Positions 36,422 to 63,658 of a stretch of DNA of 64,000 nucleotides are shown one piece after another. Position 1 is the stretch's first letter; every line of letters begins with the position of its first letter. This DNA comes from Embleya hyalina (GTDB lineage: Bacteria > Actinomycetota > Actinomycetes > Streptomycetales > Streptomycetaceae). The position numbers and the translations under genes are program-made. The notes under the pieces are model-generated. The model was given only the letters and a program-made list of their open reading frames with translations. It did no database searches and was not told where the DNA came from. The stretch covers positions 376,888 to 440,887 of the forward strand of contig NZ_BIFH01000015.1 in NCBI RefSeq assembly GCF_003967355.1, written 5' to 3'.

Positions 36422-36465
36422 GTTCACCCTCGGTTCACTTTCCGCGGCGGATCGCTTCATTCACA
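36422..36465 (+). promoter_or_regulatory. PHO box of the pst operon (three in-phase units)
   Basis: GTTCACCCTCG (36422-36432) and GTTCACTTTCC (36433-36443) are adjacent 11-nt repeats. After one non-matching 11-nt unit, CTTCATTCACA (36455-36465) continues in the same phase. This is the classic Streptomyces PhoP-binding layout and lies 77-120 nt before the pstS start. Confidence 0.9.
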
Positions 36466-45332: not shown

Positions 45333-45968
45333 TCATCCCGCCGGACGCGGCTCGGCCGTGACCAGTGGCCGCAGCGGTCCGCGTTCGACCATCCGCACCA
45401 CCGGCTCCAGGAGGCGGCCCACGAACATCGAGCCGACCAGCGCGACCAGCGCGCCGAGCGCGAACCCGGCGAGCACGTCGGTCGGGTAGTGCACGCCCAC
45501 GTAGAGCCGGGCGAAGCCGGTGAACACCGCGGCGAGCACCGCGAGGACGCCGATCCGGCGGTCCACCAGCAGGATCCCGACCGCGAGCGCCATCGTGGTC
45601 AGCGCGTGGTCGGAGGCGAACGACGGGTCGGTCTTGCCCTGCACGAGCACGTGCAACCCGTCGTGGCTCAGGAAGGGGCGCGGCCGGTCCACCCAGTCGC
45701 GCAGCGGCGCGTTGGCCAACTCCGCCACCAGGGCCGCGAGCGGGGCCCACACGAGGCCGGCCACGGCCGCGACGTGGTCCGGCCGGGAGCGTATCCGCCA
45801 CCACGCGAGCAGGCCGAGCACGGCGAGTACGGCGAACATGCCGTACTCGCCCATGAACTCCATGCCGCCGTGCGCCCAGGAGGTGTGTTCGGTGAGTCCG
45901 TTGACGTCCCGCAGGACCTCGATGTCGAGGTTGTCGTCCGTACTCTCCGCCAGGACCTGCAAGGACAC
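45333..45968 (-). CDS. PAP2-family membrane phosphatase
   Basis: The 211-residue integral membrane protein has the three PAP2 motifs: RDWVDRPRP (about 90-98), PSFASDHA (about 115-122) and ARLYVGVHYPTDV (about 153-165) with catalytic His160. About five membrane helices are predicted. Targets could be undecaprenyl diphosphate or phosphatidyl phosphates. The start is GTG at 45968 with AAAGGGG upstream. It lies 111 nt after the exporter ATPase gene on the same strand, so lipid-carrier recycling for the adjacent polymer pathway is possible but not shown. Confidence 0.88.
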   Translation of the reverse strand: MSLQVLAESTDDNLDIEVLRDVNGLTEHTSWAHGGMEFMGEYGMFAVLAVLGLLAWWRIRSRPDHVAAVAGLVWAPLAALVAELANAPLRDWVDRPRPFLSHDGLHVLVQGKTDPSFASDHALTTMALAVGILLVDRRIGVLAVLAAVFTGFARLYVGVHYPTDVLAGFALGALVALVGSMFVGRLLEPVVRMVERGPLRPLVTAEPRPAG

Positions 45969-46079: not shown

Positions 46080-46943
46080 CTACTTGCCCTCGTAGGCGTC
46101 GACGACCTCCGTCGTCGGACCGTCCATCTTGATCACGCCCTGGTCGAGCCAGATCACCCGATCGCAGGTGTCCCGGATCGACTTCATGCTGTGGCTGACC
46201 AGGAAGACCGTGCCCGCCTCCTCGCGGAGCCGGCGGATCCGCGCCTCGCTCTTGAGCTGGAAGTCGCGGTCGCCGGTGGCCAGCGCCTCGTCGATCATCA
46301 GCACGTCGTGCGTGCGCGCGGCCGCGATGGAGAACCGCAGGCGGGAGGCCATGCCGGACGAGTACGTCCGCATCGGCAGCCGGAGGAAGTCCTTGCCGTT
46401 GTAGTTGTTCAGCCCGGAGAACGTGGCGATGTCGTCGTACTTGTCGTCGGCCTCGCGCTGGGTCATGCCCATCGCCAGGCAGCCCAGGATGATGTTCCGC
46501 TCACCGGTGAGGTCGTTCATCATCGCGGCGTTGACGCCCAGGAGCGACGGCTGGCCGTCGCTGTAGATCTTGCCGGTGGTGGGCGGCAACAGGCCGGCGA
46601 TGCAGCGCAGGATCGTGCTCTTGCCCGAACCGTTGCGCCCGATCAGGCCGATCGCCTGACCCTTGTAGGCGACGAAGCTGACGCCGCGCACGGCGTGCAC
46701 CTCGGTGATGCCCGCCGCCTTCTTGCGCAGCGCGAGCCGGGACAGCGCGGAGGTGGCGCTGCCCTTGCCCGCGGCGGCGCCGTGCACCCGGTAGATCAGG
46801 TGCACGTCGTCGACCACCACGGTCGGCGGCATCTCCTCCTGCGGCTGCTGCGCGGCACCCTGCTCGGGCACGTCGACCTCGGACTTCGCTTCGGACTTCG
46901 CGCCGGCCTCGGCCAAACTCATGATCGCGGGCTGCTCAGCCAC
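46080..46943 (-). CDS. Polysaccharide/teichoic-acid exporter ATPase (TagH/Wzt-like)
   Basis: The 287-residue ATPase has a disordered 40-residue lead, then Walker A LIGRNGSGKST, the Q-loop region and the signature YSSGMASRLRFSIAAA. Walker B is DVLMIDEALATGD and the H-loop is LVSHSMKSIRD. The IDEALATGD and SSGM forms are typical of TagH/Wzt/KpsT exporters that move lipid-linked polymers, not of importers. There is no C-terminal carbohydrate-binding domain, so it is the short type. It overlaps the permease gene by 8 nt. Confidence 0.92.
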   Translation of the reverse strand: MAEQPAIMSLAEAGAKSEAKSEVDVPEQGAAQQPQEEMPPTVVVDDVHLIYRVHGAAAGKGSATSALSRLALRKKAAGITEVHAVRGVSFVAYKGQAIGLIGRNGSGKSTILRCIAGLLPPTTGKIYSDGQPSLLGVNAAMMNDLTGERNIILGCLAMGMTQREADDKYDDIATFSGLNNYNGKDFLRLPMRTYSSGMASRLRFSIAAARTHDVLMIDEALATGDRDFQLKSEARIRRLREEAGTVFLVSHSMKSIRDTCDRVIWLDQGVIKMDGPTTEVVDAYEGK

Positions 46944-47856
46944 TGCCGTACCTCTCTTCCGCCTTCCAGAAGTACACGTATCCGCCGATGCCCATCACCA
47001 GCGCCCAGCCCACCGCGTAGCCCCACACGTGCAGCGGCAGGGTGTGGTGGCTGTCGATGAGCGAGTCGCGGATCACCTCGATGTAGACCGCTCCCGGGTT
47101 CGCCTCCAGCACCCGGGCCACCCAGCCGGGCGCCTTGTCGGTGTAGGAGTCCAGGCTGTAGAACACGCCGCTGAGGTACAGCCAGGTGCGCAGCACGAAC
47201 GGCAGCAGCTGCTTGATGTCCACCAGCACCGCGCCGATCCGGGCCAGGACCAGGCTCAGACCGACGTTGAAGACGAACTGCAGCACCAGCGCGGGCACCA
47301 CCAGGAGCCACTTCAGGGTGAGCGGCTCGCCGGTGCCCAGCACGATCGCGCACAGCACGACCATCGAGAACAGCAGCTGCTGGAGCTGAACGATGGTGAA
47401 CGAGATCGGCAGGCACGCGCGGGGGAAGTGCAGTGCCCGGATCAGATTGAGCTGGTCGCTGATCGCCCGGCTGCCCGCGAGCACCGCGCTCTGCGTGAAG
47501 GTGAACACGAAGACGCCGGTGACCAGGAAGGCGACGTAGTTGTCGATGCCCTCCTTGGTCTGCACCAGGTAGCCGAAGATCAGGTAGTACACGGCCGCGT
47601 TCATCAGCGGCGTGAGCACCTGCCACACCTGGCCGAGCTTGGCCGTGCTGTAGGTGGCCCGGGTCTTGGCGTTGGCGAAGGCCACGATGAAGTGGCGCCG
47701 GGCCCAGAGCTGCCCGCTGTACGCGAACAGCCCGGGGCGGGCACCACTGACCGTCAGCTTGTAGCGGGCGGCGAGGTCCGCCAGTGGTTCGCTGGAACCG
47801 GGGGGTGCCGACGTCCCCTGTGGGCTAAGGGTGTCGGCCTGCACGCTGTTGGCCAC
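46936..47856 (-). CDS. ABC-2 type polysaccharide/teichoic-acid export permease (TagG/Wzm-like)
   Basis: The 306-residue permease has six hydrophobic segments and the ABC-2 pattern: a cytoplasmic amphipathic N-terminus (LFAYSGQLWARRHFIVAFAN) and YSTAKLGQVWQVLTPLMNAA leading into helix 1. RALHFPRACLPISFTIVQL is the typical interface stretch. It pairs with the downstream ATPase. The start is GTG at 47856 with a weak ribosome binding site, 58 nt after the glycosyltransferase gene. Confidence 0.92.
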   Translation of the reverse strand: MANSVQADTLSPQGTSAPPGSSEPLADLAARYKLTVSGARPGLFAYSGQLWARRHFIVAFANAKTRATYSTAKLGQVWQVLTPLMNAAVYYLIFGYLVQTKEGIDNYVAFLVTGVFVFTFTQSAVLAGSRAISDQLNLIRALHFPRACLPISFTIVQLQQLLFSMVVLCAIVLGTGEPLTLKWLLVVPALVLQFVFNVGLSLVLARIGAVLVDIKQLLPFVLRTWLYLSGVFYSLDSYTDKAPGWVARVLEANPGAVYIEVIRDSLIDSHHTLPLHVWGYAVGWALVMGIGGYVYFWKAEERYGSG

Positions 47857-47914
47857 GTTGACACTTTCATGTGCGTCGGGTCGAAATCGATACGGTACGG
47901 GGAATTCCAGCCTG

Positions 47915-48853
47915 TCAGATCACGGGCGGACGGCCGAGCCTGGTCATCCGCCAGACCGTTCGCCAGGACATCGGTCGGCGCGGGCCGGCGGGGGTCCGCC
48001 AGCCCTCCCGGAAGCCGGCCGCCCAGGCCCTGGCGTTCTCCTTGGACGGTCGGCGGGCGGCGGTGAGCACCACCCAGGTACCCAGGTAGGCGGGCACGAT
48101 CGGCCACGGCAGATTGCGCCGGGCCAGGTAGACGCGGTTGCGCGCGTTCATCCGGAAGTAGGAGGCGTGCCGGGCCGGGCTGGTCTTGGGGTGCTCCAGC
48201 ACGATGTCGGCGCGGTACTCGATCTCCCAGCCCGCGTCGAGCGTGCGCCAGGCCAGGTCGGTCTCCTCGTGCGCGTAGAAGAAGTCGTCGGGCAGCCCGC
48301 CGACCTCGCGCAGCACCGCGGCGCGCACCGCGGCGGCGCCGCCCAGGAAGGTGGTCACCGGGCCGGAGTGCAGCGGGTCGCCGACCCGGATCCGGGGCAC
48401 GTGCCGGCGCTGGGTCTCGCCGCTGTCCGGATCCACGATGCGGAAGGAGACGATGCCCAGGCGCGGGTTGGCCGCGAACGCCTCGCGCAGCAGGCGGCCG
48501 GCGTCGGTGCCGCCGAGCCTGCCGTCGTCGTCGAGGAAGAGCACCACGTCGGTGTCGGCCGGCAGGGCGTCGGTGCCGACGTTGCGGCCGGCGGGGATGC
48601 CCACGTTCTTCGGCAGGGCGACGCCCACCGCGCCCTCGGGCAGCTCCGGCAGCGGCCCGCCGTTGGCCACCACGACCACGGCCATCGACTCGCCGTCCTG
48701 GTCGGCGACCGAGCGCAGCAGTCGGTCCAGCTCGTGCGGGCGGTCGCCCATGGTCAGCACCACCGCGCCGAGCGCCAGGTGGCCGGCGTCGGGGGTGCCG
48801 GGCCGGTCGCCGGCGCCGTCGGCCCGCTGCCCCTCGGCAGCCTCGGCGGTCAC
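47915..48853 (-). CDS. GT2-family glycosyltransferase
   Basis: The 312-residue enzyme has a GT-A fold with ALGAVVLTMGDRPHELDRLL at the N-terminus and the metal-binding DXD in VLFLDDDGRL. ALPKNVGIPAGRNVGTDAL and FFYAHEETDLAWRTLDAG, the acceptor/base motif with the ED pair, follow. The C-terminal part (ARNRVYLARRNLPWPIV) resembles rhamnosyl- or galactofuranosyl-transferase-like GT2 enzymes. The start is GTG at 48853, overlapping the phosphatidyltransferase stop (GTGA). Donor and acceptor are unknown. Confidence 0.9.
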   Translation of the reverse strand: MTAEAAEGQRADGAGDRPGTPDAGHLALGAVVLTMGDRPHELDRLLRSVADQDGESMAVVVVANGGPLPELPEGAVGVALPKNVGIPAGRNVGTDALPADTDVVLFLDDDGRLGGTDAGRLLREAFAANPRLGIVSFRIVDPDSGETQRRHVPRIRVGDPLHSGPVTTFLGGAAAVRAAVLREVGGLPDDFFYAHEETDLAWRTLDAGWEIEYRADIVLEHPKTSPARHASYFRMNARNRVYLARRNLPWPIVPAYLGTWVVLTAARRPSKENARAWAAGFREGWRTPAGPRRPMSWRTVWRMTRLGRPPVI

Positions 48854-49632
48854 CGGAGCCTGCTCGACATGAGCACGCTGACCAGGTGCAGCACGGTCTG
48901 CAGGAGGGCGATGGCGGCCAGCGCGGTGACCGCGATCCGGCTGTAGAGCAGGCCGCCGTCGTCGGCCACCAGGTCGAGCACGCCGGCCAGGAGCAGGAAG
49001 ATCGACGCCTCGACGGCGCCGACCAGGCGGTGGAACTTGAGCGAGGCGACCACCTTGCGCGCGCTCGCCGCGCCCGAGGAGCGCGGCACGGCGGCGGCGT
49101 CCTGTACGGGCGGCAGGCCGCTCTTCGCGCGGGCGCCGTCGACCAGGTCGGTCTCGGACTTGATCAGGATCGCGCCGAGGGCGGCGACCACGCCGAGCGT
49201 GGCGTAGCCGTTGAAGCCGCCGCCGTCCAGGACGCCCGCCGCGTGCAGGCCGGCGCCGGAGAGCAGCGCGGCCTCGGACAGGTAGTGGCCGACCCGGTCG
49301 AGGTAGACCCCGGTGACCGAGGTCTGCCGGCGCCAGCGGGCCACCTCGCCGTCGACGCAGTCGAGCAGCAGGTAGAGCTGCACCAGGATCAGCGCGGCGA
49401 GCGGTCCGGCGATGCCGGGCAGGATCAGCGCGGCGCCGGCGGCGATGCCCGCGAGGATCATCATGTAGGTGAGCCCGTTGGGCGTCACCCGGGTCCCGAC
49501 GATGCGTCGGGTGACCTGGAGGGAGATCTGCCGCATGTAGATGCGGCCGGCCCAGTGTTCGCCACTGCGCCGGTCGAGCAGTCCCTCGGGGTGTACGACC
49601 GAGCGAAGCTCAGCCGCCGTAGGTGTGGACAT
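48850..49632 (-). CDS. CDP-alcohol phosphatidyltransferase-family membrane enzyme with altered motif
   Basis: The 260-residue protein has about six membrane helices and the CDP-OH-P motif DCVDGEVARW beginning at Asp91. The family pattern D-x2-D-G-x2-A-R-x8-G-x3-D-x3-D is kept at Asp91, Asp94, Gly95, Ala98, Arg99, Gly108 and Asp112, but the last Asp is His116 (LDRVGHYL). That Asp is normally the catalytic base. Either this is a subfamily with a different alcohol donor or base, or activity is lost. The start is ATG at 49632, overlapping the dehydrogenase-like gene by 23 nt. Confidence 0.85.
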   Translation of the reverse strand: MSTPTAAELRSVVHPEGLLDRRSGEHWAGRIYMRQISLQVTRRIVGTRVTPNGLTYMMILAGIAAGAALILPGIAGPLAALILVQLYLLLDCVDGEVARWRRQTSVTGVYLDRVGHYLSEAALLSGAGLHAAGVLDGGGFNGYATLGVVAALGAILIKSETDLVDGARAKSGLPPVQDAAAVPRSSGAASARKVVASLKFHRLVGAVEASIFLLLAGVLDLVADDGGLLYSRIAVTALAAIALLQTVLHLVSVLMSSRLR

Positions 49633-50680
49633 ATTCGGTCACCGAATCCCGGATGGCGTCGTGGTCGAGGTCGAGATGTTCGAGGATGGTGAAACGTCCC
49701 GGGCGGGTCTGCGGCGCGTGACTCACCACCGCCGTGAACTCGTCGATGGTCAGGCCGAGATGCTCCGGCACGACCGGCAGCCTGTGCCGATCGAGGGTGC
49801 TCGTCAAGAGCCTGGTCAGCGCCTCGTCGCCGCGCAGGTGGGTGGCGAACGCGGCGCCCAGGCCGACCTGTTCGCCGTGCAGCCCGTCGTGTCCGTCGCG
49901 CTCGCCGTAGAGCAGGTCGATGGCGTGCGAGATCTCGTGGCAGGCACCGCTGCACGGGCGGGTGGTGCCGGCCACCGACATCGCTATCCCGGAGAGCACC
50001 AGGCCCTCGGTCAGCGCGACCAGGAAGTCGTCGTCCTCGATGCCGCCCGGGCGGTGCAGCATCGAGTCGCCGGAGGTACGGGCCAGCGCGACCGCGAGGC
50101 CGTCCAGCGGCTCGCCGGTGATCCGGTGGGACAACTCCCAGTCGGCCACCGCGCACAGGTTCGACAACGACTCGCCGATCCCGGAGCGCACGAAGCGCTG
50201 CGGCGCGGCCCGGACCAGGTCCAGGTCGACCACCAGCGCGATCGGCGTGGGCACGCCGTAGGAACCGCGGCCCGCGTCGTTGTCGAGGATGCTCACCGGC
50301 GAGGCGATGCCGTCGTGGGCGAGGTTGGTGGCGACCGCGACCATGGGCAGGCCCACGCGCGCGGCGGCGTACTTGGTGGCGTCCAGGACCCGGCCGCCGC
50401 CGAGGCCGACCACCGCGTCGTAGGCGCCGCCGCGCATGCGGTCGGCCAGGTCGACCGCCGCGGTCAGCGTGCCGCCGCCCACCGAGTACCACTCGGCCCC
50501 CGGCAGTTGCGGGGCGAACCGCTCGCGCAGCCCGGCGCCGGAGCCCTCGCTGACCACGACCGCGATCCGCCCCGAGGTGGAGACCCGACGGTCGGCCAGG
50601 ATGCCGGCCAGGTCGGCGACCGCGCCCGCGCGGATGTCGACGGTGAGCGGTGTGGGGACCAGTCGGGTCAGTACCGGCAC
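49610..50680 (-). CDS. sn-Glycerol-1-phosphate dehydrogenase-like (EgsA/AraM) iron-containing dehydrogenase
   Basis: The roughly 356-residue protein is an iron-containing-alcohol-dehydrogenase-superfamily member. The nucleotide loop is VVGLGGGRVLDATKYAA. The metal-binding part includes NLAHDGIASPVS (Asp), CHEISHAIDLL (His) and DGLHGEQVGLG (His), matching archaeal G1P dehydrogenase and bacterial AraM more than glycerol dehydrogenase. It would reduce DHAP or a related keto-phosphate to a polyol phosphate with NAD(P)H. The GTG at 50680 gives a 13-nt overlap with the nucleotidyltransferase gene. The substrate is not proven. Confidence 0.82.
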   Translation of the reverse strand: MPVLTRLVPTPLTVDIRAGAVADLAGILADRRVSTSGRIAVVVSEGSGAGLRERFAPQLPGAEWYSVGGGTLTAAVDLADRMRGGAYDAVVGLGGGRVLDATKYAAARVGLPMVAVATNLAHDGIASPVSILDNDAGRGSYGVPTPIALVVDLDLVRAAPQRFVRSGIGESLSNLCAVADWELSHRITGEPLDGLAVALARTSGDSMLHRPGGIEDDDFLVALTEGLVLSGIAMSVAGTTRPCSGACHEISHAIDLLYGERDGHDGLHGEQVGLGAAFATHLRGDEALTRLLTSTLDRHRLPVVPEHLGLTIDEFTAVVSHAPQTRPGRFTILEHLDLDHDAIRDSVTEYVHTYGG

Positions 50681-51435
50681 GCGATCTCCCGGGCGACCGT
50701 CAGGTCCTCGGTGGTGTCGATCTCGGTCCACGGCACCCGGGTGTCGGGCGCGCCGATCGGCTGCACGTCGACCCGGCCGCCGCGGTTCACCAACTCCTGG
50801 TAGCCGTCCTCGTAGTACAGCTGCGGGTCGCGCTCGAAGGTGGCCCGGAGCGCGTCGACCAGCGCGGGCGCGGCGTGGCCCTCGATCAGCGTGACGCCGA
50901 TGTACTCGCCGGCCGCCTCGGCCGGGTCCATCAGCTTGGTGATCCGGCGCATCCGGCCGTCGTCGCCGAGGGTGACCTTCATTTCCTCGTCGGCGAGCGG
51001 CTTGGCGGTGTCCAGGGCCAGGATGATGCCCTTGTCGCCGCCCCGCGCGGCCAGCATGGTCTCCTGTACCGAGAGCGGGTGCAGCGTGTCGCCGTTGGCG
51101 AGCAGCACGCCGTCGGCGAGGTGGTCGCGGGCGCACCACAGGGAGTAGGCGTTGTTCCACTCCTCGGCCTTGTCGTTGTCGACCAGGTGCAGTTCGAGGC
51201 CGTACCGACGCTCCAGCAGGCCCTGCCGCTCGCGGATCGCGTCGCCGCAGTAGCCGATCACGATCGCGGCCTCGGTCAGGCCGACCGCGGCGTAGTGGGA
51301 GAGCGTGACCTCCAGGATCGAGCGCTCGCTGTCCGGCGCACCGGGCGCGCCCACCGGCACCAGGGCCTTGGGCAGCGTGTCGGTGTGCGGGCGCAGCCGG
51401 CGGCCGGCGCCGGCGGCGAGAACGAGGCCGATCAT
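50668..51435 (-). CDS. Sugar/polyol-phosphate nucleotidyltransferase
   Basis: The 255-residue protein has an NTP_transferase fold: the N-terminal loop LVLAAGAGRRLRPHT with LPKALVPVG, and ADGVLLANGDTLHP carrying the metal-binding Asp. WTEIDTTEDLTVAREI at the end is typical of LicC/choline-phosphate or inositol-phosphate cytidylyltransferases and of GlmU/RmlA-like enzymes. With a G1P-dehydrogenase-like gene and two CDP-alcohol phosphatidyltransferases beside it, CTP is the most likely nucleotide. The ATG at 51435 overlaps the next gene's stop (ATGA). Confidence 0.85.
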   Translation of the reverse strand: MIGLVLAAGAGRRLRPHTDTLPKALVPVGAPGAPDSERSILEVTLSHYAAVGLTEAAIVIGYCGDAIRERQGLLERRYGLELHLVDNDKAEEWNNAYSLWCARDHLADGVLLANGDTLHPLSVQETMLAARGGDKGIILALDTAKPLADEEMKVTLGDDGRMRRITKLMDPAEAAGEYIGVTLIEGHAAPALVDALRATFERDPQLYYEDGYQELVNRGGRVDVQPIGAPDTRVPWTEIDTTEDLTVAREIACRY

Positions 51436-53324
51436 GAAAGGTCTCCAGTTCGATCGGTGGCCGCCGCGACGACGGCCTCCAGGGGGCGGTACGACGATGT
51501 GGAGGCCGAGGGGGCGGGGCCCACCGGGGTGGCGTCGTCGATGTCCGGGCGCGCGCCGCGCACCCAGAAGGCGACACTCTCGGCGAGCACGATCGCCGCC
51601 AGCACGCCGGCCGTGACGATCAGACCGGTGCGCAGGGTGTCCGAGCCCGCCGCGGCCAGCACGGTCACCAGGAGCACACGTCCCTCGTGACCGAGCACCG
51701 CCCACACCAGCGCCCGGGGCGGGGCCCCGTAGCCGCCGCGCAGGCGATACACCGTGTCGTAGTGATGGTAGGCGGTGGCCGCGACCAAACCGAATGCCGC
51801 GGCCACCGCGGTGGGCACCACCCGCGCGGCCAGGACGGTGATCGCGGCGTATTCGGCGGCCCGGAAGATCGGCGGCACCACCCAGTCGAGCCGGCGCACG
51901 AGCGGGCGGCCGATCGCCACCCCGGCGCACAGCACGTAGGCGCCCGCGCCGGCCAGGCCCCACCACTCGCCCGCGCCACCCGCCAGCAGCACGGCGAGCA
52001 GGGCGGCGGTACCGAGCAGCGCGGCCGCCGGGGCGGGCACGCGCAGGCGCAGCCGGGCGACGAGTTCGGCGAGGGGGCCGCTGTCGGCGAGCGCGGCCAG
52101 GTGCTCGCCGACCTGCGGGGCGGCCGGGGTGCGGCGCGGCAGCGAGCGCAGGATGCGGCCGAGCGAGGTGTAGCAGGCGGCGAGCACGCAGCCGGTGATC
52201 AGCACGACGAAGGTGATGCGCGGTGTGGTGGTCGCGGTGAGCACGGCGATCAGCGCCCAGCGCTCGCCGATCGGCAGGATGATCATCCGCCGGGCCCACA
52301 CGGTCCAGCCGACCGTGTTCAGCTTGCCGGACAGCTTGGCGCCCGCGCCGCCGTCCGCGCTCTCGTCGTCCCCGCCGCCGATGCCGCGCCGGGTCTCGTT
52401 GAACGCGAAGTCGACGATGTGCCGGGTGGTCATCACCACCATCGCGACCAGCGCGAGGGTCCACACGTCGTCGTCGTGCCGGGCGGCGCCGAGCGCCAAG
52501 CCCGCGTAGACGGCGTACTCCTTGGCCCGGTCGAAGGTGGCGTCCAGCCACGAGCCGATCCGCGAATAGCTCACCGCGTAGCGGGCGAGTTGGCCGTCGG
52601 TGCAGTCGAGCACGAAGGAGAAGTACAGGCCCAGGGCCGCGCCGATGTAGCCGGCGCGGGTGCCGGTGGCCGCGCCCGCCGCCGCGGCGAGCGCGACGAA
52701 CAGCGAGGCGACGGTGACCTGATTGGGCGTCAGGCCCCGGCGCGCGCACCAGCGGGCCAGGTAGCGCGACCAGGTGCTGACCGCGAACGTGGTGAAGAAG
52801 CCGTCCCGGGCCTTGACCGCCGAGGTCAGTCGGACGCGCTCGTCGTCCACCGCGGCCACCGCGGCCACCGCCCGGGCGCGGGCGTCCTCGTCGCGCGGCA
52901 CCTCGGCGAGCAGTTCGCCCAGCGGCACCTCACGCAGCGAGACGCCCGCCGCGGCCAGCCGCTCGGCGATCAGGTCGGGCACGCAGGTGTCGGCGGCGGG
53001 CCGGTCGAGTCCGGCCACGATCCGGGCCGCCTCGGCCCTGGCCTCGCCCTCGACGGCGAGCACGCCGGGTACGTGTGCGGCCGGGAAGCGGGTGTCGGCA
53101 ATCACCAGGCGCAGCGCGTGCCGGTGGCCGACGAAACGCGCGTCGACGAGGGTGATCCGGTCCTCCCCCGCGGCCAACGCGGCACGCAGCGCGTCCGGGG
53201 CCGCCACCTCGATCTCCGGCACACTGCGATCGAGCGCCGACAACTCGGCGAGCAGTGGGGCCGGATCGACCCGAGCCGTCGAACCGGGGGCAGCGGGCGC
53301 TGTGACGACCAGGGCGGTGGACAG
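51432..53324 (-). CDS. DUF5941-type fusion: N-terminal domain, CDP-alcohol phosphatidyltransferase and membrane C-terminus
   Basis: The protein has a roughly 165-residue N-terminal domain (VARFVGHRHALRLV-like, PRF motifs), possibly a remnant nucleotidyltransferase. A canonical CDP-OH-P membrane domain follows with DCTDGQLARY, GSWLDATFDRAK and both catalytic Asp residues. The C-terminal membrane region (about 390-560) matches DUF5941. An in-frame TGA sits just before codon 53324. The first usable codons are CTG at 53324 (MSTALVVTAPAAPGSTA, with AAAGGAG 9 nt upstream) and TTG at 53243; I take CTG because the Shine-Dalgarno is good and the MSTA start resembles homologues. It is the first gene of the seven-gene operon. 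Confidence 0.75.
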   Translation of the reverse strand: MSTALVVTAPAAPGSTARVDPAPLLAELSALDRSVPEIEVAAPDALRAALAAGEDRITLVDARFVGHRHALRLVIADTRFPAAHVPGVLAVEGEARAEAARIVAGLDRPAADTCVPDLIAERLAAAGVSLREVPLGELLAEVPRDEDARARAVAAVAAVDDERVRLTSAVKARDGFFTTFAVSTWSRYLARWCARRGLTPNQVTVASLFVALAAAAGAATGTRAGYIGAALGLYFSFVLDCTDGQLARYAVSYSRIGSWLDATFDRAKEYAVYAGLALGAARHDDDVWTLALVAMVVMTTRHIVDFAFNETRRGIGGGDDESADGGAGAKLSGKLNTVGWTVWARRMIILPIGERWALIAVLTATTTPRITFVVLITGCVLAACYTSLGRILRSLPRRTPAAPQVGEHLAALADSGPLAELVARLRLRVPAPAAALLGTAALLAVLLAGGAGEWWGLAGAGAYVLCAGVAIGRPLVRRLDWVVPPIFRAAEYAAITVLAARVVPTAVAAAFGLVAATAYHHYDTVYRLRGGYGAPPRALVWAVLGHEGRVLLVTVLAAAGSDTLRTGLIVTAGVLAAIVLAESVAFWVRGARPDIDDATPVGPAPSASTSSYRPLEAVVAAATDRTGDLS

Positions 53325-53654
53325 GCGCCATCACTCCTTTGCGTGCTCGCCTCGTGAGGCGATCGCCGCGGCAACGCCGATCGGGTTCGAGCCGATCCGA
53401 CGGAGGGTATGGGGGATTCCCCGAAACAACGAGACAGGTTAACGGATCACCCGGCGTCGTCCGCCACCTGCGACGGGGATCGTTTCCGACCCGGCTCGCG
53501 AACCCGGGCCCGCGGAACCGCCGACCGCCCGTTTCGCGTCCGTATGCTCCCGACGGTCGCCGGACGCCCGTATCCGGCGGGAATTGGCCCGCCGATCCGC
53601 CCCCTGGCTAAGCTCGAGGCACCGTTCTCGAGTCCCGCCCACGGAGGTGGTCGC
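53325..53654. other. Divergent promoter region of the two polymer operons
   Basis: This 330-bp region separates the leftward DUF5941 gene from the rightward GT2-TagF gene. It contains an AAAGGAG site at its left edge, a GGAGGTGG site at its right edge and two CTCGAG sites about 18 bp apart (near 53612-53635). No gene is evident. Confidence 0.5.
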
Positions 53655-56498: not shown

Positions 56499-57661
56499 GC
56501 GGGACCATCGTGACGCGCACACCGCGCGACATCTTCATCGTCTGCAACAACATCGAGGAACTCGGCGGGCTCCAGCGCTGGGCGCACCACACCGCGGGGA
56601 TGCTGGAGGCGAGCGGCCACGCGGTGCACCTGATCGGTGTCGTGCACCCTGAGAGCGTGCACGACTACGGCCGCGACCTGCCGTACCGCACGAGCGTCCT
56701 GCACCGGGTGCATCCGCCGTCGGCCTGGGGCCCGCGCACGGTCCGCGATCGGCTCGACGTGGTCGCCCGGCGTCGGGAGGCGCTGCGCAAGGCGTCGGTG
56801 CGGCAGGCGGCCGACCGGCTCACCGCGCTGTTCCGCGCGGCCCGGCCCGGGGCGATCGTGATCGTCCCGCAGGTGTGGGCGATGGAGTGGGTCGCCGCGG
56901 CCGACACCTCCGGGTTGCGGGTGATCGGGATGAGCCACGAGTCGTTCGAGGCGTCGGCGAACTCCTCGCGGGCCCGCCGGGTGCGCCGCTGGTTCGCCGA
57001 CGTCGACCGGCTGCTGCTGCTGACGGTCGAGGACGCGGACGCGTGGAGTCGGGACGGGCTCAACAACGTCGACGTGCTGCCGAACCCGCTGCCGATCACG
57101 CCCGAGACGACCTCGGAGCGGACCGCTCCGCTGGTGGTCGCGCTGGGCCGGCTCTCCTTCGAGAAGGGATACGACCTGCTCCTGGAGGCGTGGGTCGACG
57201 TGGCGCGGCGCCGGCCCGACTGGCGACTGCGGCTGTACGGCTCGGGGCCCGAGGAGGCGCGGTTGCGCGCCCGGGCGAGCACGCTGGGGTTGACCGACGG
57301 CGTCGAGTTCGCGGGCCGCACCGCCGACGTCGAGGGCGCGTTGCGCGAGGCCTCGGTGTTTGCGGCGCCCTCGCGCGCCGAGGGCTTTCCGATCTCGCTG
57401 ATGGAGGCGATGGCCATGGGCGTGCCCAGCGTCGCGTTCGACTGCGCGCCCGGCGTCCGCGAGATCGTCGCGCACGAGCGGAACGGCCTGCTGGTGCCGC
57501 GCGGCAACACCCGGGAGTTCACCGTCGCGTTGGAGCGGCTGATCACCGACCGGGCGTTGCGCGACCGGCTCGGCGAACAGGGCCTCGAGGACGTCACCCG
57601 GTTCGCGCCGGAGGCGGTCCTGGAGCGCTGGGAACAGATCTTCGGATACGTCTACCGCTAG
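56495..57661 (+). CDS. GT4-family glycosyltransferase
   Basis: The 388-residue GT-B enzyme shows an N-terminal acceptor loop (FIVCNNIEELGGLQRWAHH) and a C-terminal donor domain with VALGRLSFEKGYDLLLEAW. SRAEGFPISLMEAMAMGVPSV carries the EX7E motif, and DCAPGVREIVAHERNGLLV follows. The start is GTG at 56495, overlapping the GT2-TagF stop (GTGA). It resembles PimB-like and TagE-like enzymes; the sugar is unknown. The gene converges with the next GT2 gene, 18 nt away. Confidence 0.9.
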   Translation: MSGTIVTRTPRDIFIVCNNIEELGGLQRWAHHTAGMLEASGHAVHLIGVVHPESVHDYGRDLPYRTSVLHRVHPPSAWGPRTVRDRLDVVARRREALRKASVRQAADRLTALFRAARPGAIVIVPQVWAMEWVAAADTSGLRVIGMSHESFEASANSSRARRVRRWFADVDRLLLLTVEDADAWSRDGLNNVDVLPNPLPITPETTSERTAPLVVALGRLSFEKGYDLLLEAWVDVARRRPDWRLRLYGSGPEEARLRARASTLGLTDGVEFAGRTADVEGALREASVFAAPSRAEGFPISLMEAMAMGVPSVAFDCAPGVREIVAHERNGLLVPRGNTREFTVALERLITDRALRDRLGEQGLEDVTRFAPEAVLERWEQIFGYVYR

Positions 57662-57679
57662 CGCGCGTCCGGCCCGGGA

Positions 57680-59314
57680 TCACCCTCGCCGGCGGCGCAG
57701 TCGGGCGCCCAGGACCTCGCGGATGCCCGCACCGCCGCCGGCGTAGCGGATCGCCAACGACCGGCTCGCGGTCGCGTGGAACTGCACGAACGCGAGTCCG
57801 TTGCGCAGATCGGGCCGCATCCGCCGGCCCAGGCCCCGCCCGGCGCGCACCTTGGTGACGATCGGCGCGCCGGCCGCGTGATGCACCCGGACCCACACGT
57901 CCCAGACCGCGAACGGCTCCAGGCCCGCCACGTGCAGCGCCTCGACCGTGACCCGGCCGGTCCACGCGCCGGCGCCGGGCACCGCGCGCAGCCGGCCCTC
58001 CCGGACGCCGAGGACCCGGACCTCGTCACCGTGGCGATCGCGCAACTCCACGTCGATCCGGCTCGGTTCGACCTCGGCCAACCGCCCGTGGAGGTCGTGC
58101 ACGGTGAGGTCCAGGACGTTGCCGCGCGGGCCGAGCACATCCGCCTCGACCACCACCGGCAGTTCGGCCGGCGCGAGGTCCGCGAGGCCCGTCAGCCACA
58201 CCTCGGGCGCCGCGTCGTCCCACACCGCGACCCCCTCGCGAGTGGCGTACGGACCGATCAACCGCGGCGGCTCGGCGGCCAGTTCGGCCAACCGCGCCAG
58301 GTCGGTCGGCTCCGGCCGGGCGGCGAGCACGGCGGCGGCCCAGCGCGCGGCCGGGAACGCGGCCCGTACCGCGTCGGCGTCCAGGCCCGCCAGGTGCCCG
58401 CGGGCCGCGTGCCACCACGGATCCCGGTACTCGGCCGGGCGCTTGTGCAGGTCGCGCAGGTAGAGCCGCAGGTCGTGCTCGACGAACTTGGTCTGCGCCG
58501 CCGCCCGCAGCGCGGGCTCGTCCGCCTCGGTGAGGATGTCCACGACCTGTCGGTGCGCGTCGAGGCGATCCAGCCAGTTGCCGATCCGGTCCCGACGCAG
58601 CGAGATCGACGGATCGCCGGCCTCGCGACGCACGTGCCAGGTGTAGACGTGATCGGGGATCACCGCGAAGCGCGGGCCGGCCGCGTACACCCGGGCGGTG
58701 AACACGAAGTCCTCGTAGTGCCCGGCGCCGTCGGGGAAGCGGATGTCGTGCCCGAGCAGGAACGCCCGGTCGTAGAGCTTGTTGACGGACAGGGTGTCCC
58801 ACACCGTCTCGGGCCGCTCGGCCACATTCGTGTAGCCGACCTCGGCGGTGAACAGGTGCGGCTGCCACGGCACATCGCGCGTGCGCGGCAACTCCCGCCG
58901 CACACACAGGCCGGCGACCACGTGGGCGTCGTGCCGATCGGCCGCGGCGGCCAGCGCGTCGACCGCGCCGGGCGGGAACACGTCGTCGCTGTCCAGGAAG
59001 ACGATCCGAGCCGCGCGCGCGGCCGCCATCCCGTCGTTGCGCGGGGTGCCGCACCCACCGCTGTTGTCCGCGCGGCGCACGACCCGCACGCGCGGATCCT
59101 CGGCCGCCAGCCGCGCGCAGACGGCCGGGGTGTCGTCGGTCGAGGCGTCGTCCACGACCACGACCTCGCCGACGATCGCGCCCTGGGCGAGCGCCGAACG
59201 CACGGCGTCGGCGAGTCGGTCGGCGTCGTTGTACACGATCACCACCACGCCGACCGATCCGGCGTCCGACCCGGGCCCGACACCGTCGTCGACCCGCGCG
59301 CTCCGCGGACTCAC
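57680..59314 (-). CDS. GT2 glycosyltransferase with long C-terminal region
   Basis: The 544-residue protein has a GT2 domain very similar in layout to the first third of the GT2-TagF fusion (VGVVVIVYNDADRLADAVRS, VVVVDDASTDDTP, IVFLDSDDVFPPGAVDALA). A middle region (about 200-360) and a beta-rich C-terminal region follow (VLDLTVHDLHGRLAEVEPSR, FAVWDVWVRVHHAAG). It lacks the TagF domain. The GTG at 59314 overlaps the upstream membrane gene's stop by GTGA, linking the two. It may be a paralogue that kept only the glycosyltransferase and linker parts. Confidence 0.85.
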   Translation of the reverse strand: MSPRSARVDDGVGPGSDAGSVGVVVIVYNDADRLADAVRSALAQGAIVGEVVVVDDASTDDTPAVCARLAAEDPRVRVVRRADNSGGCGTPRNDGMAAARAARIVFLDSDDVFPPGAVDALAAAADRHDAHVVAGLCVRRELPRTRDVPWQPHLFTAEVGYTNVAERPETVWDTLSVNKLYDRAFLLGHDIRFPDGAGHYEDFVFTARVYAAGPRFAVIPDHVYTWHVRREAGDPSISLRRDRIGNWLDRLDAHRQVVDILTEADEPALRAAAQTKFVEHDLRLYLRDLHKRPAEYRDPWWHAARGHLAGLDADAVRAAFPAARWAAAVLAARPEPTDLARLAELAAEPPRLIGPYATREGVAVWDDAAPEVWLTGLADLAPAELPVVVEADVLGPRGNVLDLTVHDLHGRLAEVEPSRIDVELRDRHGDEVRVLGVREGRLRAVPGAGAWTGRVTVEALHVAGLEPFAVWDVWVRVHHAAGAPIVTKVRAGRGLGRRMRPDLRNGLAFVQFHATASRSLAIRYAGGGAGIREVLGARLRRRRG

Positions 59315-61407
59315 TTCTTCGCTCCCTTGGCCGGCGACTTGCAGCCGTTCTGGGGGTAGGGGATCGTCGGGATCGGCGCGGGCTTGGCACCGGGCGGGAG
59401 CACCGGCTGCGGTCGGAGGTCGTAGACGCACAGGCTGGGGTTGGTGAACAGGACTTCCAGGCGCAACTCCGGGCGCTCGGTGCGCAGCCGCTGAACGGTG
59501 TTCAGGGTCTCGGGGTCGTTGGTGATCACCCGGATCGGGACGTCCTTGTACTTCAGGATCCGCGCGGTCAGTTCCTTCGGGCTCTCCTGGTTGTGCGAGC
59601 CGTACGGCGGCTTCTTCGGCCAGGCCAGGCCGAGGTTGCGCGAGAGCGCGTCGACCCAGAGCGTGGAGAAGTAGTTGGCCTGCCAGTTGTCCTTGAACTG
59701 CAGGAAGTTGACCCTGTCGTCCGCCGGCTTGGCCCGCATCGTCGCCGTGACGGCCTTCGCGAGCTTGAGTTCCTCGAAGCGTCGGGCGAAGAAGGCGACC
59801 CCCCAACTCAGGTCCCTGCTCGGTTTGCGCCAGACCTCGCGGTCGGGGTTGGCGTTCGCCGCGATGCCGGCGACCAGCGCGAGGGACAACACGACGGCCG
59901 AGATCGGGGTGACCGCGTGCGGAACGCGAACCGGCGCGCCCTCGACCGGTTCACTCGGGGCGGGGGCCACGAGCGTGGTCCCGCCGAGCGCGATCAGGGC
60001 GACCACGATCAACTGGTGCAGCAACTTCTCGTAGTAGTAGGAGGTCTCCCCCACCATCGCCGTCTGGTACAGGAACATCAGCACCACCGCGGCCGCCGCG
60101 GCTACGGTCCACAGACCCGCGACCCGGCGCACCGGGTCACGCCACGCGGCCCGGTTGGCGAAGGCGAATCCGACGACGAACAGCAGCAGGGTCAGCAGAT
60201 GCCGGTTGACCGGGCTGATCCCGCCGCCGGAGTTGAGCGTCTCCGCGTCGCTGGTGTACTTCCAGTTCGCCAACGGCACCACCAGGCTCAACGCGAAGGT
60301 GAACACCGTGGCGATCGCCGTCCAGAGCCACTGCTTCCGCAGTTCCTCGCGGTGCAGGACGAGCCAGATCAGCACCATCACGCCCGCCAGGGGCAACAGC
60401 AGGTAGTAGACGAAGGACACCGAGATCACGAGCGCGGACAGCATGCACACCTGTTCGCGCAGTCGCGGAAACGGGCGGGCGGTAATCGCGCCGGTAATGG
60501 CCAGCAAACCGAGGCCGATGAACTCGCTGGAGAAACCCCGGACGAACATCGCCGTGCCGTCGCCGAAGTAAAGGTAGGCGGCCACCCCGGAGCCCACCGC
60601 GAGGTAGCGCCAAACGGACAGCCGCGGGCCCGCGATCCAGCGAATCGACCACAACACCGCGAAGATCATGAAGACGAACGTCGCGATGTAATAGACGACG
60701 AAATGGTCGAATCCGCTCTGCGCCGACCCCATGCCCGTGCCGGAGCGCAGGAAGTTGTCGAAGAGCCCCATCGCCAGGTGGCTGCCCTGGGGGTAGGCGG
60801 TCAGTTCGTCGGGGAGCATGACCCCGAGTTCCGAGTGGTGCAGGAACGTGTAGCCGCCCACCTCGCGAATGCTGTCGTACAGGGCGAAGTGCCTGGCCAG
60901 GTCCTCCGCGACGACCAGCAGGGACAAGCGCCCCGTCGCGTCGCGTCCGACGAACGGTTCCACCACGGCCAGGGCGGCGATCGTGGTGAAGCCGGCGAGG
61001 AACAGATCGGACGTCGTGCCGAAAGCGGGCATTTCGGGCCGACGTCCCGTGAGCACGGCGACGGCGCACAGCAGGCTGAGGCCGACCCCGCCCACGGCGA
61101 CCGGGTGCAATCCCCAGGGCCAGACGGAGAAGACCAGCCCGCCGATGCACACCGCGCCGAAGATCACCACGAGAGCGGGAACCAGCCGGTCCATCAACGT
61201 GGTCCCACATCGCAACAGGGAAACCACGCCGAACAGGAAGACGAACGGCAGGATCACCGCGGCGTGCGCGAAGTAGGCGGCGAGCGTCAGCAGCCAGGAG
61301 AGGGCGACCGCCACCACGAGCAGGACGGCCGGGCGGCGGCCGGGACGGGAGGCGGTCGGGGCATTCGTCATGCGCACGGGCGCCTTCGGCTTCGCTGAGA
61401 CGGGCAC
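59311..61407 (-). CDS. Large multi-pass membrane protein, possible GT-C-like glycosyltransferase
   Basis: The 698-residue protein has about 13 membrane helices in the first 500 residues and an extracytoplasmic C-terminal domain (about 520-698) with FLQFKDNWQANYFSTLWVDA and a Pro-rich tail. It resembles GT-C-type arabinosyl/mannosyl transferases in overall build, but a clear DXD/EXD catalytic loop is not obvious; HHSELGVMLPDELTAYPQG is a candidate loop. Start choices are GTG 61407 and ATG 61371. It is coupled to the GT2 gene and placed in the same locus, so a sugar-transfer or translocation role is a fair guess. Confidence 0.7.
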   Translation of the reverse strand: MPVSAKPKAPVRMTNAPTASRPGRRPAVLLVVAVALSWLLTLAAYFAHAAVILPFVFLFGVVSLLRCGTTLMDRLVPALVVIFGAVCIGGLVFSVWPWGLHPVAVGGVGLSLLCAVAVLTGRRPEMPAFGTTSDLFLAGFTTIAALAVVEPFVGRDATGRLSLLVVAEDLARHFALYDSIREVGGYTFLHHSELGVMLPDELTAYPQGSHLAMGLFDNFLRSGTGMGSAQSGFDHFVVYYIATFVFMIFAVLWSIRWIAGPRLSVWRYLAVGSGVAAYLYFGDGTAMFVRGFSSEFIGLGLLAITGAITARPFPRLREQVCMLSALVISVSFVYYLLLPLAGVMVLIWLVLHREELRKQWLWTAIATVFTFALSLVVPLANWKYTSDAETLNSGGGISPVNRHLLTLLLFVVGFAFANRAAWRDPVRRVAGLWTVAAAAAVVLMFLYQTAMVGETSYYYEKLLHQLIVVALIALGGTTLVAPAPSEPVEGAPVRVPHAVTPISAVVLSLALVAGIAANANPDREVWRKPSRDLSWGVAFFARRFEELKLAKAVTATMRAKPADDRVNFLQFKDNWQANYFSTLWVDALSRNLGLAWPKKPPYGSHNQESPKELTARILKYKDVPIRVITNDPETLNTVQRLRTERPELRLEVLFTNPSLCVYDLRPQPVLPPGAKPAPIPTIPYPQNGCKSPAKGAKK

Positions 61408-62104
61408 GGCTCCTCGATTCGGAAATCCGGTGCTCGGGCACTGGTCGGATCGTGTTCACGTCGAATACACCCGGGGTGCCATCCGGGTCCGAGATACGAC
61501 GGAGGATCGTCCCGCAGCATATCCCACGGGCCTGCGCCGCCCTCAAATCCGGTGCCGGTGGGCGGTGATTGCCGAGATCGATGCGCGTCCGCCCGAAACC
61601 CGCCCCGGGCCCGATCGGCGGGTCGGCCGTCCGGAAGGTACAAGTCGACGTTCCCTCGGATTCTCCGTCCCGACCCACCGGAACGGCGTCCTTACCGACC
61701 GGACGACACCCCGGGATAATCCCCGTGAGCGCGGCCATCGATATCGTTGGCCATCGCTCCCGGTATAAGTACTCGAATGGATTCGGCGCGCCGAAAATCA
61801 GCTCTCCCGAAACGTCGACGAATAGCCCGGGCCGACACCGCGGCGCCTCGCCCGGATCGTGGGCGTCGATTAACCCGGTGTTCACATCCGGCGGTTGCGC
61901 GGAACGGGCGGAGCCCGCCGACGGATCGGTGGCGAGGGCGCCACGTCGCGTGACCAAGGGCGACATGTCCCGCGCCGTCCGAAGGATGAAGCCGGATGAG
62001 TGCCCTCGGCGAGGCGTGCAGTACCGCGCACCGAGCATCCCTCTGGACTCACTGTATTGTGCGTACCCGTGACCCCAGGAATTCCAAGCCTCAAGGCCCC
62101 CGAG
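61408..62104. other. Long divergent intergenic region
   Basis: Roughly 700 bp between divergent membrane-protein genes. By eye it is less GC-rich than its flanks, with AT-rich patches near 61740-61790 (TATAAGTACTCG). I find no conserved protein in any frame; short frames have atypical composition. It presumably holds both promoters. Confidence 0.5.
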
Positions 62105-63658
62105 ATGACCGCTCCGGAAGCGCGCACGAGAACAAGCCGCTTCCACGCGCCCCGGTGGCTGCGTCGATGGCTGACAGCTTTCCTCGGCTTCTTTCTACTC
62201 GGTGCGGGCTGGGCACTCGCCACTCCATATGACGGGGCGCCGGACGAGCTTCAGCACATCATCCGCGCTTCCGGTGTCGCCTACGGCGAGATCGCGCCCG
62301 AACTGACGGTCAACGGGAAGTTCACGGGGTCCAACCAAAGCGCCGCGGCCGGATTGTGGCGGGAGAACTGCTGGGCGTTCGAAACCGGGCGGAGCGCCGC
62401 GTGTTCCAAGGAACCGGGTGGCGACAACACCGTCCATCCGACACCGACCCGGGCCGGGCGCTACAACCCGATCTACTACGCTTTCATCGGTTTGCCCATC
62501 AGGTTCGCGCCGAACTGGACGGGCATCGAAATCGCCCGCCTGATCAGCGCGGCGATGGTCGCGGCCATGTTGGCGTCCGCCGCGTACGCGCTGACCTATT
62601 GGACGCGCCATCGATTCATGCTGGCGGGGCTGGTCGTCGCAACGACGCCGATCACCATGCACCTGTCCGGCTCGATCAATCCGAACGCGCTGGAAATCGC
62701 CGCAGGCACCGCGCTGTTCGCCGCGTTGATCCCGGTCTGTCTGGAACACACACCCGGACGACGACCACCCAAGGCACCACTCGTGCTCGCGGCCGTCTCC
62801 GGTTCGATCCTGGTCAGCGTGCGCGCCGCGGGGCCGCTGTGGGCGCTGACCATCATCGGCGTGCTCCTGGTCCCGAACTCGCGTGATCTGTTCATGACAC
62901 TGCTCAAGTCGGTCGCGGCACGGGTCACCGCGATCGTCCTGACCGTGGCCACCATCTCCGCCGTCGCCTGGACCGTGATCATGAAGGCCGGCGAGGCCGG
63001 CGAGGACGCGGGCGGCGCCGGGATCAGCTTCAAGCAGGCGGCGGCATTCGAGGTCGTCGGTCGCTGGGGCAAGTACATCGACGAGATGGTCGGCGTGATG
63101 TCGTGGCTCGACGCCCGCCCGCCCGTCCCCGCCTACACCCTGTGGTTCATGTCCTTCGGGATGCTCGTGTTCACCGCGTTCGTGATGGCGCCCTGGGTGG
63201 ATCGCTGGCGGTTGTTCGCGCTGATCTTCGTGGTCTTCATGTTCCCGACGCTCTCCGACGCCTGGAACGTCGAGACGTACGGTTTCATCTCCCAGGGTCG
63301 CTACATGCTGCCCGTGGCGGTGGGCATCCCGTTGCTGGCCGCGTTCGTGATCTCCCGCGACAACCTGTTCGGCCGGGCCCGCGAGATCACGATGACCAGG
63401 TTCCTGCTCATCGTCCTCCTGCCCCTGCACTTCGTCTTCCTGTGGTTCACGATGATCCGCTGGCAACAGGGTGCCAAGCAGACCCCCTACCGGGTCCGCC
63501 TCAACGCCTTCGCGGGCGCGTGGCATCCGCCGCTGGGTTCGGTGTTGCCGATCCTCCTCGCGCTGATCGGTATCACCGTCATCGGAGCCTACGTATGGCT
63601 GGCCTCCCGGTTGGAGAAGCTGCCGGAAATCCCGGAGAACGCCGTCCGGGCAGCCTGA
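62105..63658 (+). CDS. DUF2142 family membrane protein
   Basis: The roughly 517-residue protein has a basic N-terminus (RFHAPRWLRRWL), a first helix, and the DUF2142 signature YDGAPDELQHIIRASGVAYG. A lumenal loop follows (CWAFETGRSAACSKEPGG, RYNPIYYAFIGLP) and about ten more helices. QGRYMLPVAVGIPLLAAFV is also typical. DUF2142 proteins are probable GT-C-like glycosyltransferases found in cell-wall polymer loci. I chose ATG 62105; GTG 62069 (MTPGIPSLKAPEMTAP) is an alternative, and neither has a clear ribosome binding site. Confidence 0.85.
   Translation: MTAPEARTRTSRFHAPRWLRRWLTAFLGFFLLGAGWALATPYDGAPDELQHIIRASGVAYGEIAPELTVNGKFTGSNQSAAAGLWRENCWAFETGRSAACSKEPGGDNTVHPTPTRAGRYNPIYYAFIGLPIRFAPNWTGIEIARLISAAMVAAMLASAAYALTYWTRHRFMLAGLVVATTPITMHLSGSINPNALEIAAGTALFAALIPVCLEHTPGRRPPKAPLVLAAVSGSILVSVRAAGPLWALTIIGVLLVPNSRDLFMTLLKSVAARVTAIVLTVATISAVAWTVIMKAGEAGEDAGGAGISFKQAAAFEVVGRWGKYIDEMVGVMSWLDARPPVPAYTLWFMSFGMLVFTAFVMAPWVDRWRLFALIFVVFMFPTLSDAWNVETYGFISQGRYMLPVAVGIPLLAAFVISRDNLFGRAREITMTRFLLIVLLPLHFVFLWFTMIRWQQGAKQTPYRVRLNAFAGAWHPPLGSVLPILLALIGITVIGAYVWLASRLEKLPEIPENAVRAA

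Follow-up and report, generated by a model that had tools for sequence, protein, structure and literature searches.

A conserved operon beside a TagF-type polymerase gene

The window analysed here is a 64,000-nucleotide stretch of Embleya hyalina (GCF_003967355.1, contig NZ_BIFH01000015.1, positions 376,888 to 440,887), an actinomycete with a 12.05 Mb genome in 78 contigs, and it carries a seven-gene operon and a divergent TagF-type gene that may together make and export a teichoic acid from cytidine diphosphate (CDP)-1-glycerol. The operon lies on the minus strand, is transcribed toward lower coordinates and is tightly packed, with most neighbours overlapping by a few bases. Its products, assigned by Pfam together with the further evidence described below, are, in order, a CDP-OH_P_transf and DUF5941 protein (CDPOH1, 51432-53243), an NTP_transferase protein (NT, 50668-51435), a dehydrogenase of the Fe-ADH_2 family that resembles sn-glycerol-1-phosphate (G1P) dehydrogenase (G1PDH-like, 49610-50680), a second CDP-alcohol phosphotransferase homologue (CDPOH2, 48850-49632), a family 2 glycosyltransferase supported also by synteny (GT2a, 47915-48853), a TagG/Wzm-like ABC-2 permease with Pfam (ABC2_membrane) and NCBIfam matches (46936-47856), and a TagH/Wzt-like ABC ATPase predicted to serve polymer export (46080-46943), whose 159-bit match to the TagH model falls under the equivalog cut-off. 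A gene for a PAP2-type membrane phosphatase, identified by Pfam, follows on the same strand (45333-45968). On the plus strand, diverging from the operon, lie the gene for a TagF-type polymerase (53655-56498; the frame is open from 53409 and the start is uncertain) and a Pfam-assigned family 4 glycosyltransferase gene (GT4, 56495-57661) that overlaps the tagF stop codon. A previous sequence-only reading, which had proposed a pathway for an undescribed phosphate-containing surface glycopolymer, had named all of these except the PAP2 gene, and every gene that it named was located.

Most of the 80 named Streptomycetaceae loci show the seven-gene order with almost no change, and the operon also occurs, with rearrangements, in other families, which shows that the grouping is more than chance. 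Every one of the 15 genomes sampled from the Streptomyces-like genus encodes DUF5941, as do 51 of the 197 genomes of the class that were used for comparison. The PAP2 gene is found downstream of the operon in this genus and in Yinghuangia, and was not detected beside it in the Streptomyces loci compared. Because the order repeats across the family and its synteny has already been published, the locus is not rare; the operon is general in Streptomycetaceae. A comparison of 929 Streptomyces genomes published in 2026 reports a syntenic block of araM, tagG, tagH and genes for a CDP-alcohol phosphatidyltransferase, a GT2 and a nucleotidyltransferase, linked to teichoic acid (PMC13118837). These are the genes found here, and the passage concerned treats them as synteny only, with no precursor, stereochemistry or pathway. 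Given this publication and the known Streptomyces G1PDH orthologues (PMC6431249), "undescribed" was too strong a word for the locus.

A cytidylyltransferase paired with a G1P dehydrogenase-like enzyme

Among the Fe-ADH, GldA and DHQS families, the dehydrogenase is closest to G1PDH, a placement based on the score gap between families. Its matches to 3ce9 and archaeal G1PDH structures reach 132-140 bits (E 1e-37 to 1e-40; 3e-38 for 4rgq), compared with at most 51 bits for GldA-type glycerol dehydrogenases, and its nearest named homologues are from Streptomyces sp. SID3343 (92%) and Yinghuangia soli (73%). It belongs to the same enzyme family as archaeal G1PDH (4rgq, 5fb3) and Bacillus AraM, aligning over 250 amino acids with the same metal-binding positions. 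Both His ligands are invariant and the Asp ligand is kept in 39 of 41 sequences, with Glu in the window protein. The partner differs: archaeal G1PDH and AraM work with GGGPS/PcrB towards an ether lipid, whereas here the partner is a cytidylyltransferase and the proposed product a surface polymer. Coleman and colleagues listed G1PDH orthologues in Streptomyces, with no established function, and discussed them as possible archaeal-like lipid enzymes (PMC6431249), which would fit a supply of G1P for an archaeal-type ether lipid, as by AraM and PcrB in Bacillus. We disfavour this explanation as very improbable, since PcrB/GGGPS is missing from the window genome and scored above cut-off in 0 of the 197 genomes, with not even a weak match in those encoding G1PDH, while B. 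subtilis and archaeal controls were positive.

The NT gene lies directly upstream of the dehydrogenase gene, on the same strand, in 118 of 121 dehydrogenase loci, and one of the exceptions is at a contig end. The three best solved relatives in profile comparisons are LicC, the Thermotoga maritima inositol-1-phosphate cytidine triphosphate (CTP) transferase (4jd0) and PntC, ahead of enzymes that use uridine or guanosine triphosphate (UTP, GTP). All three use CTP and act on a phosphonate or a non-sugar phosphate, and these matches therefore argue against a UTP- or thymidine triphosphate-dependent sugar-phosphate enzyme, the outcome that the sequence-only reading had said would refute its scheme. 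Conserved residues of NT comprise LAAG, the Lys of PKAL, NGD and N..NN.YS, and the patterns LAAG..RL.P and N-D-K..NN.YSL are shared with LicC. Members of the LicC group act on choline phosphate, inositol phosphate or a phosphonate, whereas the pairing of NT with the G1PDH-like enzyme leads us to propose G1P as its substrate, making it a putative CTP:sn-glycerol-1-phosphate cytidylyltransferase.

The pair also occurs near TagF or TagGH genes without the CDP-alcohol phosphotransferase genes (loci L059, L066, L074, L092, L106 and L155). In Streptomyces griseoluteus (L092:9267-11581), it is inserted between the RNase E/G gene and rplU (ribosomal protein L21)-obg, beside two Glyphos_transf genes, which is a second, independent location.

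TagF and a predicted CDP-1-glycerol supply

The window TagF comprises a GT2-like part, a beta region and a Glyphos_transf domain (312.8 bits, Pfam) in which both active-site His residues are kept, within TWHG and R-x-HYL segments that align with Staphylococcus epidermidis TagF (3l7i); the 3l7j variant has Asn at the first of these positions. The sequence-only reading had described the protein as a GT2-TagF fusion. Both parts are indeed present, but because S. epidermidis TagF aligns across the GT2-like N-terminal part as well as the C-terminal domain (E 2e-67), this is the ordinary TagF architecture. Scores of 218 bits to TarF and 80 bits to TarL place the protein nearer the glycerol-type than the ribitol-type enzymes.

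This TagF is the single Glyphos_transf protein found in the genome and it has no familiar source of substrate. TagD of the canonical wall teichoic acid pathway gave no match; NadD and CoaD account for both CTP_transf_like proteins of the genome, and the one clear IspD adjoins IspF, which leaves neither TagD nor a clear TarI. TagF is therefore without a known CDP-glycerol or CDP-ribitol source except the adjoining NT. TagA (PF03808) is also missing from the genome, and a canonical TagA linkage unit was rejected. The system thus shares with the TagD-TagF-TagGH pathway of Bacillus and Staphylococcus a TagF-type polymerase with both His residues, a TagGH-type exporter and, we infer, a CDP-glycerol phosphate donor, but differs in the absence of TagD and TagA, in its extra CDP-alcohol phosphotransferases and in supply by a LicC-type cytidylyltransferase and a G1PDH-like enzyme, from which the opposite glycerol stereochemistry is predicted. 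Streptomyces himastatinicus (L120) has the operon, one TagF and two CTP_transf_like proteins that score like NadD and CoaD, although they were not identified singly. Its relative Streptomyces hygroscopicus produces both wall and lipoteichoic acids of the poly(glycerol phosphate) type, by a biosynthesis left unresolved by the lack of clear LtaS orthologues in actinobacteria (PMC3196553).

Co-occurrence across the 197 genomes links the pair to TagF. With TagF called at E <= 1e-20, it was present in 45 of the 47 genomes with a strong G1PDH and in 29 of the 150 without G1PDH (p 4e-22, a value inflated by relatedness). The association holds when DUF5941 is held constant: TagF was found in 38/38 genomes with and 5/13 without G1PDH where DUF5941 is present, and in 7/9 and 24/137, respectively, where it is absent. 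TagA, taken as a negative control, showed no association with G1PDH (13/47 and 38/150, p 0.85). Strong TagD and G1PDH never occurred together (0/47, compared with TagD in 13/150 genomes without G1PDH; p 0.04).

We propose, with a probability of about 0.6, that NT and the G1PDH-like enzyme form a two-step supply of CDP-1-glycerol for a TagF-made teichoic acid that is exported by TagGH; the substrates, stereochemistry and polymer named here are predictions drawn from computed gene content, adjacency, co-occurrence, missing enzymes, families and folds. The dehydrogenase likely reduces dihydroxyacetone phosphate (DHAP) to G1P, and NT would in turn be expected to convert G1P and CTP to CDP-1-glycerol, a step that we regard as nearly as likely. 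This product probably feeds TagF, which would polymerise glycerol-1-phosphate units into teichoic acid; the GT2 and GT4 enzymes may add sugars and TagGH may export the polymer. Litschko and colleagues showed that Cps7D, a TagF-like polymerase, polymerises CDP-1-glycerol in vitro (PMC8262930). The 118/121 pairing, the tracking of TagF with DUF5941 held constant, the exclusion of TagD and the CTP-enzyme relatives thus lend comparative support to that part of the sequence-only reading in which a keto-phosphate is reduced, activated by CTP and supplied to TagF; its placing of both CDP-alcohol enzymes in the same pathway fared worse, as described below.

Several findings weigh against this proposal. 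The dehydrogenase scores 205.9 bits against the curated G1PDH model NF002022, half of the 413-bit cut-off, and it is because of this shortfall that we call it G1PDH-like; no sequence in the 197 genomes reached that cut-off. In this genus, as in Yinghuangia and several further members of the Streptomycetaceae, Glu replaces the metal-ligand Asp, a conservative change. It is possible that the substrate is a keto-phosphate other than DHAP. The pair might then make another CDP-polyol, from a tetritol, pentitol or hexitol phosphate, for polymerisation by TagF, with an Fe-ADH-type reductase replacing TarJ. Such a route would be served equally by the adjacency of the pair and its linkage to TagF, and would fit the divergence from curated G1PDH. 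We consider it unlikely, as archaeal G1PDHs specific for DHAP are among the nearest relatives of known structure, GldA-type Fe-ADHs are far weaker matches and TagF resembles TarF more than TarL.

Other adverse points concern distribution. When the genomes are stratified by family, the association of G1PDH with TagF is moderately significant (p 0.01), two of the 47 G1PDH genomes lack TagF, and in most Streptomyces TagF is encoded elsewhere in the genome, away from the operon. A further 22 genomes have TagF with neither strong TagD nor G1PDH, and some Glyphos_transf proteins therefore use other donors. The stratified value, together with an operon that is near-universal in the family and many strata that do not vary, could mean that the pair serves an unrelated pathway, such as phosphonate or polyol metabolism, and accompanies TagF for no other reason than that large actinomycete genomes commonly have both. 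This seems improbable to us, given that the wall-polymer gene TagA is not associated with G1PDH in this way, that the two also co-vary in a small-genome family (f5) and that the pair directly adjoins TagF in several lineages. Lastly, Streptomyces coelicolor has teichulosonic acid and poly(diglycosyl phosphate), not poly(glycerol phosphate), as its characterised main wall polymers (PMC11481543, PMC7831098), although a glycerol-phosphate-type lipoteichoic acid has also been reported there (PMC3196553).

The use of a G1P-type unit in an actinomycete wall polymer had been called unusual in the sequence-only reading. G1P units are standard in lipoteichoic acid, where they derive from phosphatidylglycerol; a CDP-1-glycerol donor would be the new element. 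Litschko and colleagues regard free G1P as probably missing from most bacteria and CDP-1-glycerol as likely absent (PMC8262930), and the open-licence full texts searched held no suggestion that bacterial wall synthesis uses CDP-1-glycerol. We see about an even chance that actinobacteria, nearly all Streptomyces among them, produce CDP-1-glycerol with a G1PDH and a LicC-type enzyme and use it in the cytoplasm to build teichoic acids of archaeal stereochemistry. It would then be the first case of CDP-1-glycerol in a bacterium, in a variant of teichoic acid synthesis rather than a separate category, and would place the glycerol stereochemistry that divides archaeal from bacterial lipids in regular wall-polymer use in a major bacterial phylum. 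It would also give a job to the long-noted actinobacterial G1PDH clade, so far an oddity of the lipid divide, and a missing donor to the poly(glycerol phosphate) wall and lipoteichoic acids of actinobacteria and Streptomyces, whose synthesis has been a puzzle ever since LtaS proved to be missing. Such walls would also be expected to resist GlpQ-type enzymes that are specific for sn-glycerol-3-phosphate.

A separable CDP-alcohol module and neighbouring genes

CDPOH1 consists of a degenerate nucleotidyltransferase-like domain (residues 1-132), a CDP-alcohol phosphotransferase domain (about 143-365) and DUF5941 (about 366-565). All eight residues of the motif D1xxD2G1xxAR...G2xxxD3xxxD4 are present in 35 of 35 sequences. 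Its AlphaFold2 model shows an AF2299-like N-terminal domain without the nucleotide-binding start, with matches beginning near residue 40 of most templates, and the best structural match of the whole chain is cholinephosphotransferase 1 (CHPT1; Z 20.4 over 304 residues). DUF5941 (51549-52148, minus strand), folded alone with a confidence (pLDDT) of 92, gave Z scores of 12.8-14.4 against 11 entries for CDP-alcohol phosphotransferases, and the first unrelated chain followed at 5.6. On the basis of this model, DUF5941 (PF19365) is a degenerate second CDP-alcohol phosphotransferase fold without the catalytic motif, a domain that CDPOH1 has in addition to what it shares with AF2299, IPCT-DIPPS, phosphatidylinositol phosphate (PIP) synthase and CHPT1. 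It has invariant residues of its own, LDW..P...R..EY and YHHYDTVYR. A recent duplication of the CDP-OH domain was rejected as its origin, as hhalign detected no significant similarity between the two halves.

CDPOH2, whose best solved relative is AF2299, keeps D1, D2 and D3 but not D4, which is replaced by His in 27 and by Ala in 11 of the 38 aligned sequences. The protein therefore departs from the canonical motif, and we class it as a homologue without counting it as functional. D4 is the proposed catalytic base of the CDP-alcohol phosphotransferase family. The CDPOH2 subfamily has a conserved Lys-x-Glu-Thr-Asp after the lost D4.

The sequence-only reading had placed both CDP-alcohol enzymes in one linear pathway with the dehydrogenase and NT, which the comparison did not support. 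In 13 sampled genomes, eight of them without TagF, DUF5941 occurs without G1PDH, and it is then weakly associated with TagF; CDPOH2, GT2a and TagGH were still its neighbours in the loci inspected (L029 and L054). Conversely, the loci named above have the pair next to TagF or TagGH but no CDP-OH genes. Both CDP-alcohol enzymes, TagGH and one GT2 are thus a separable module that also exists without the pair and without TagF, and since it occurs without G1PDH, its substrate need not be CDP-glycerol. In one related genome (L057:13153-18910, plus strand), genes for a MobA-like NTP transferase, a Stealth protein and a Glyphos_transf and TarS_C1 protein stand in a row beside the module, possibly as a different precursor supply.

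An explanation centred on this module is that the CDP-alcohol enzymes join CDP-1-glycerol to an inositol phosphate or to a lipid, giving a small molecule or a lipid such as a phospholipid for export by TagGH, with TagF incidental. In profile comparison the CDP-OH domains best match archaetidylinositol phosphate and PIP synthases and IPCT-DIPPS, with cholinephosphotransferase the match by fold. An archaeal glycerophosphoinositol based on G1P is cited in PMC8262930. Against this explanation, a Lys in the YIK motif has a role in PIP synthase, and CDPOH1 aligns no Lys at that position. Weak repeat matches to TAL effectors in the same comparison were disregarded. As the pair also tracks TagF rather than the module, and occurs near TagF without it, we hold this explanation to be quite unlikely. 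Under our proposal of a TagF-made teichoic acid, CDPOH1 might instead provide or anchor the lipid end, perhaps by passing an alcohol phosphate from its CDP-activated form to a lipid in the manner of cholinephosphotransferase; this role is a tentative best guess and the weakest step of the pathway.

Beyond GT4, the minus strand encodes GT2b (57680-59296, start approximate), a Pfam-assigned paralogue of the TagF N-terminal part (35% identity over 567 aligned positions) without a polymerase domain, and a GT-C-like polytopic membrane protein (59311-61407) with no Pfam or NCBIfam match, of which a 46% homologue lies near the same operon in Yinghuangia. A DUF2142 membrane protein assigned by Pfam (62000-63658, plus strand) is a candidate member of the pathway. 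A scan for promoters and terminators found nothing, and the promoter region between the operon and tagF (53244-53654) held no convincing direct repeat of the PHO-box type. Control of the operon by a PHO box was rejected, the tandem PHO-box-like repeats at 36422-36443 lying immediately upstream of, and belonging to, a pstS-like gene. Phosphate and polyphosphate genes (ppk, CHAD, NUDIX, pst, Pit and PhoU-like) occupy a region at 32-42 kb, and the teichoic operon lies downstream of it.

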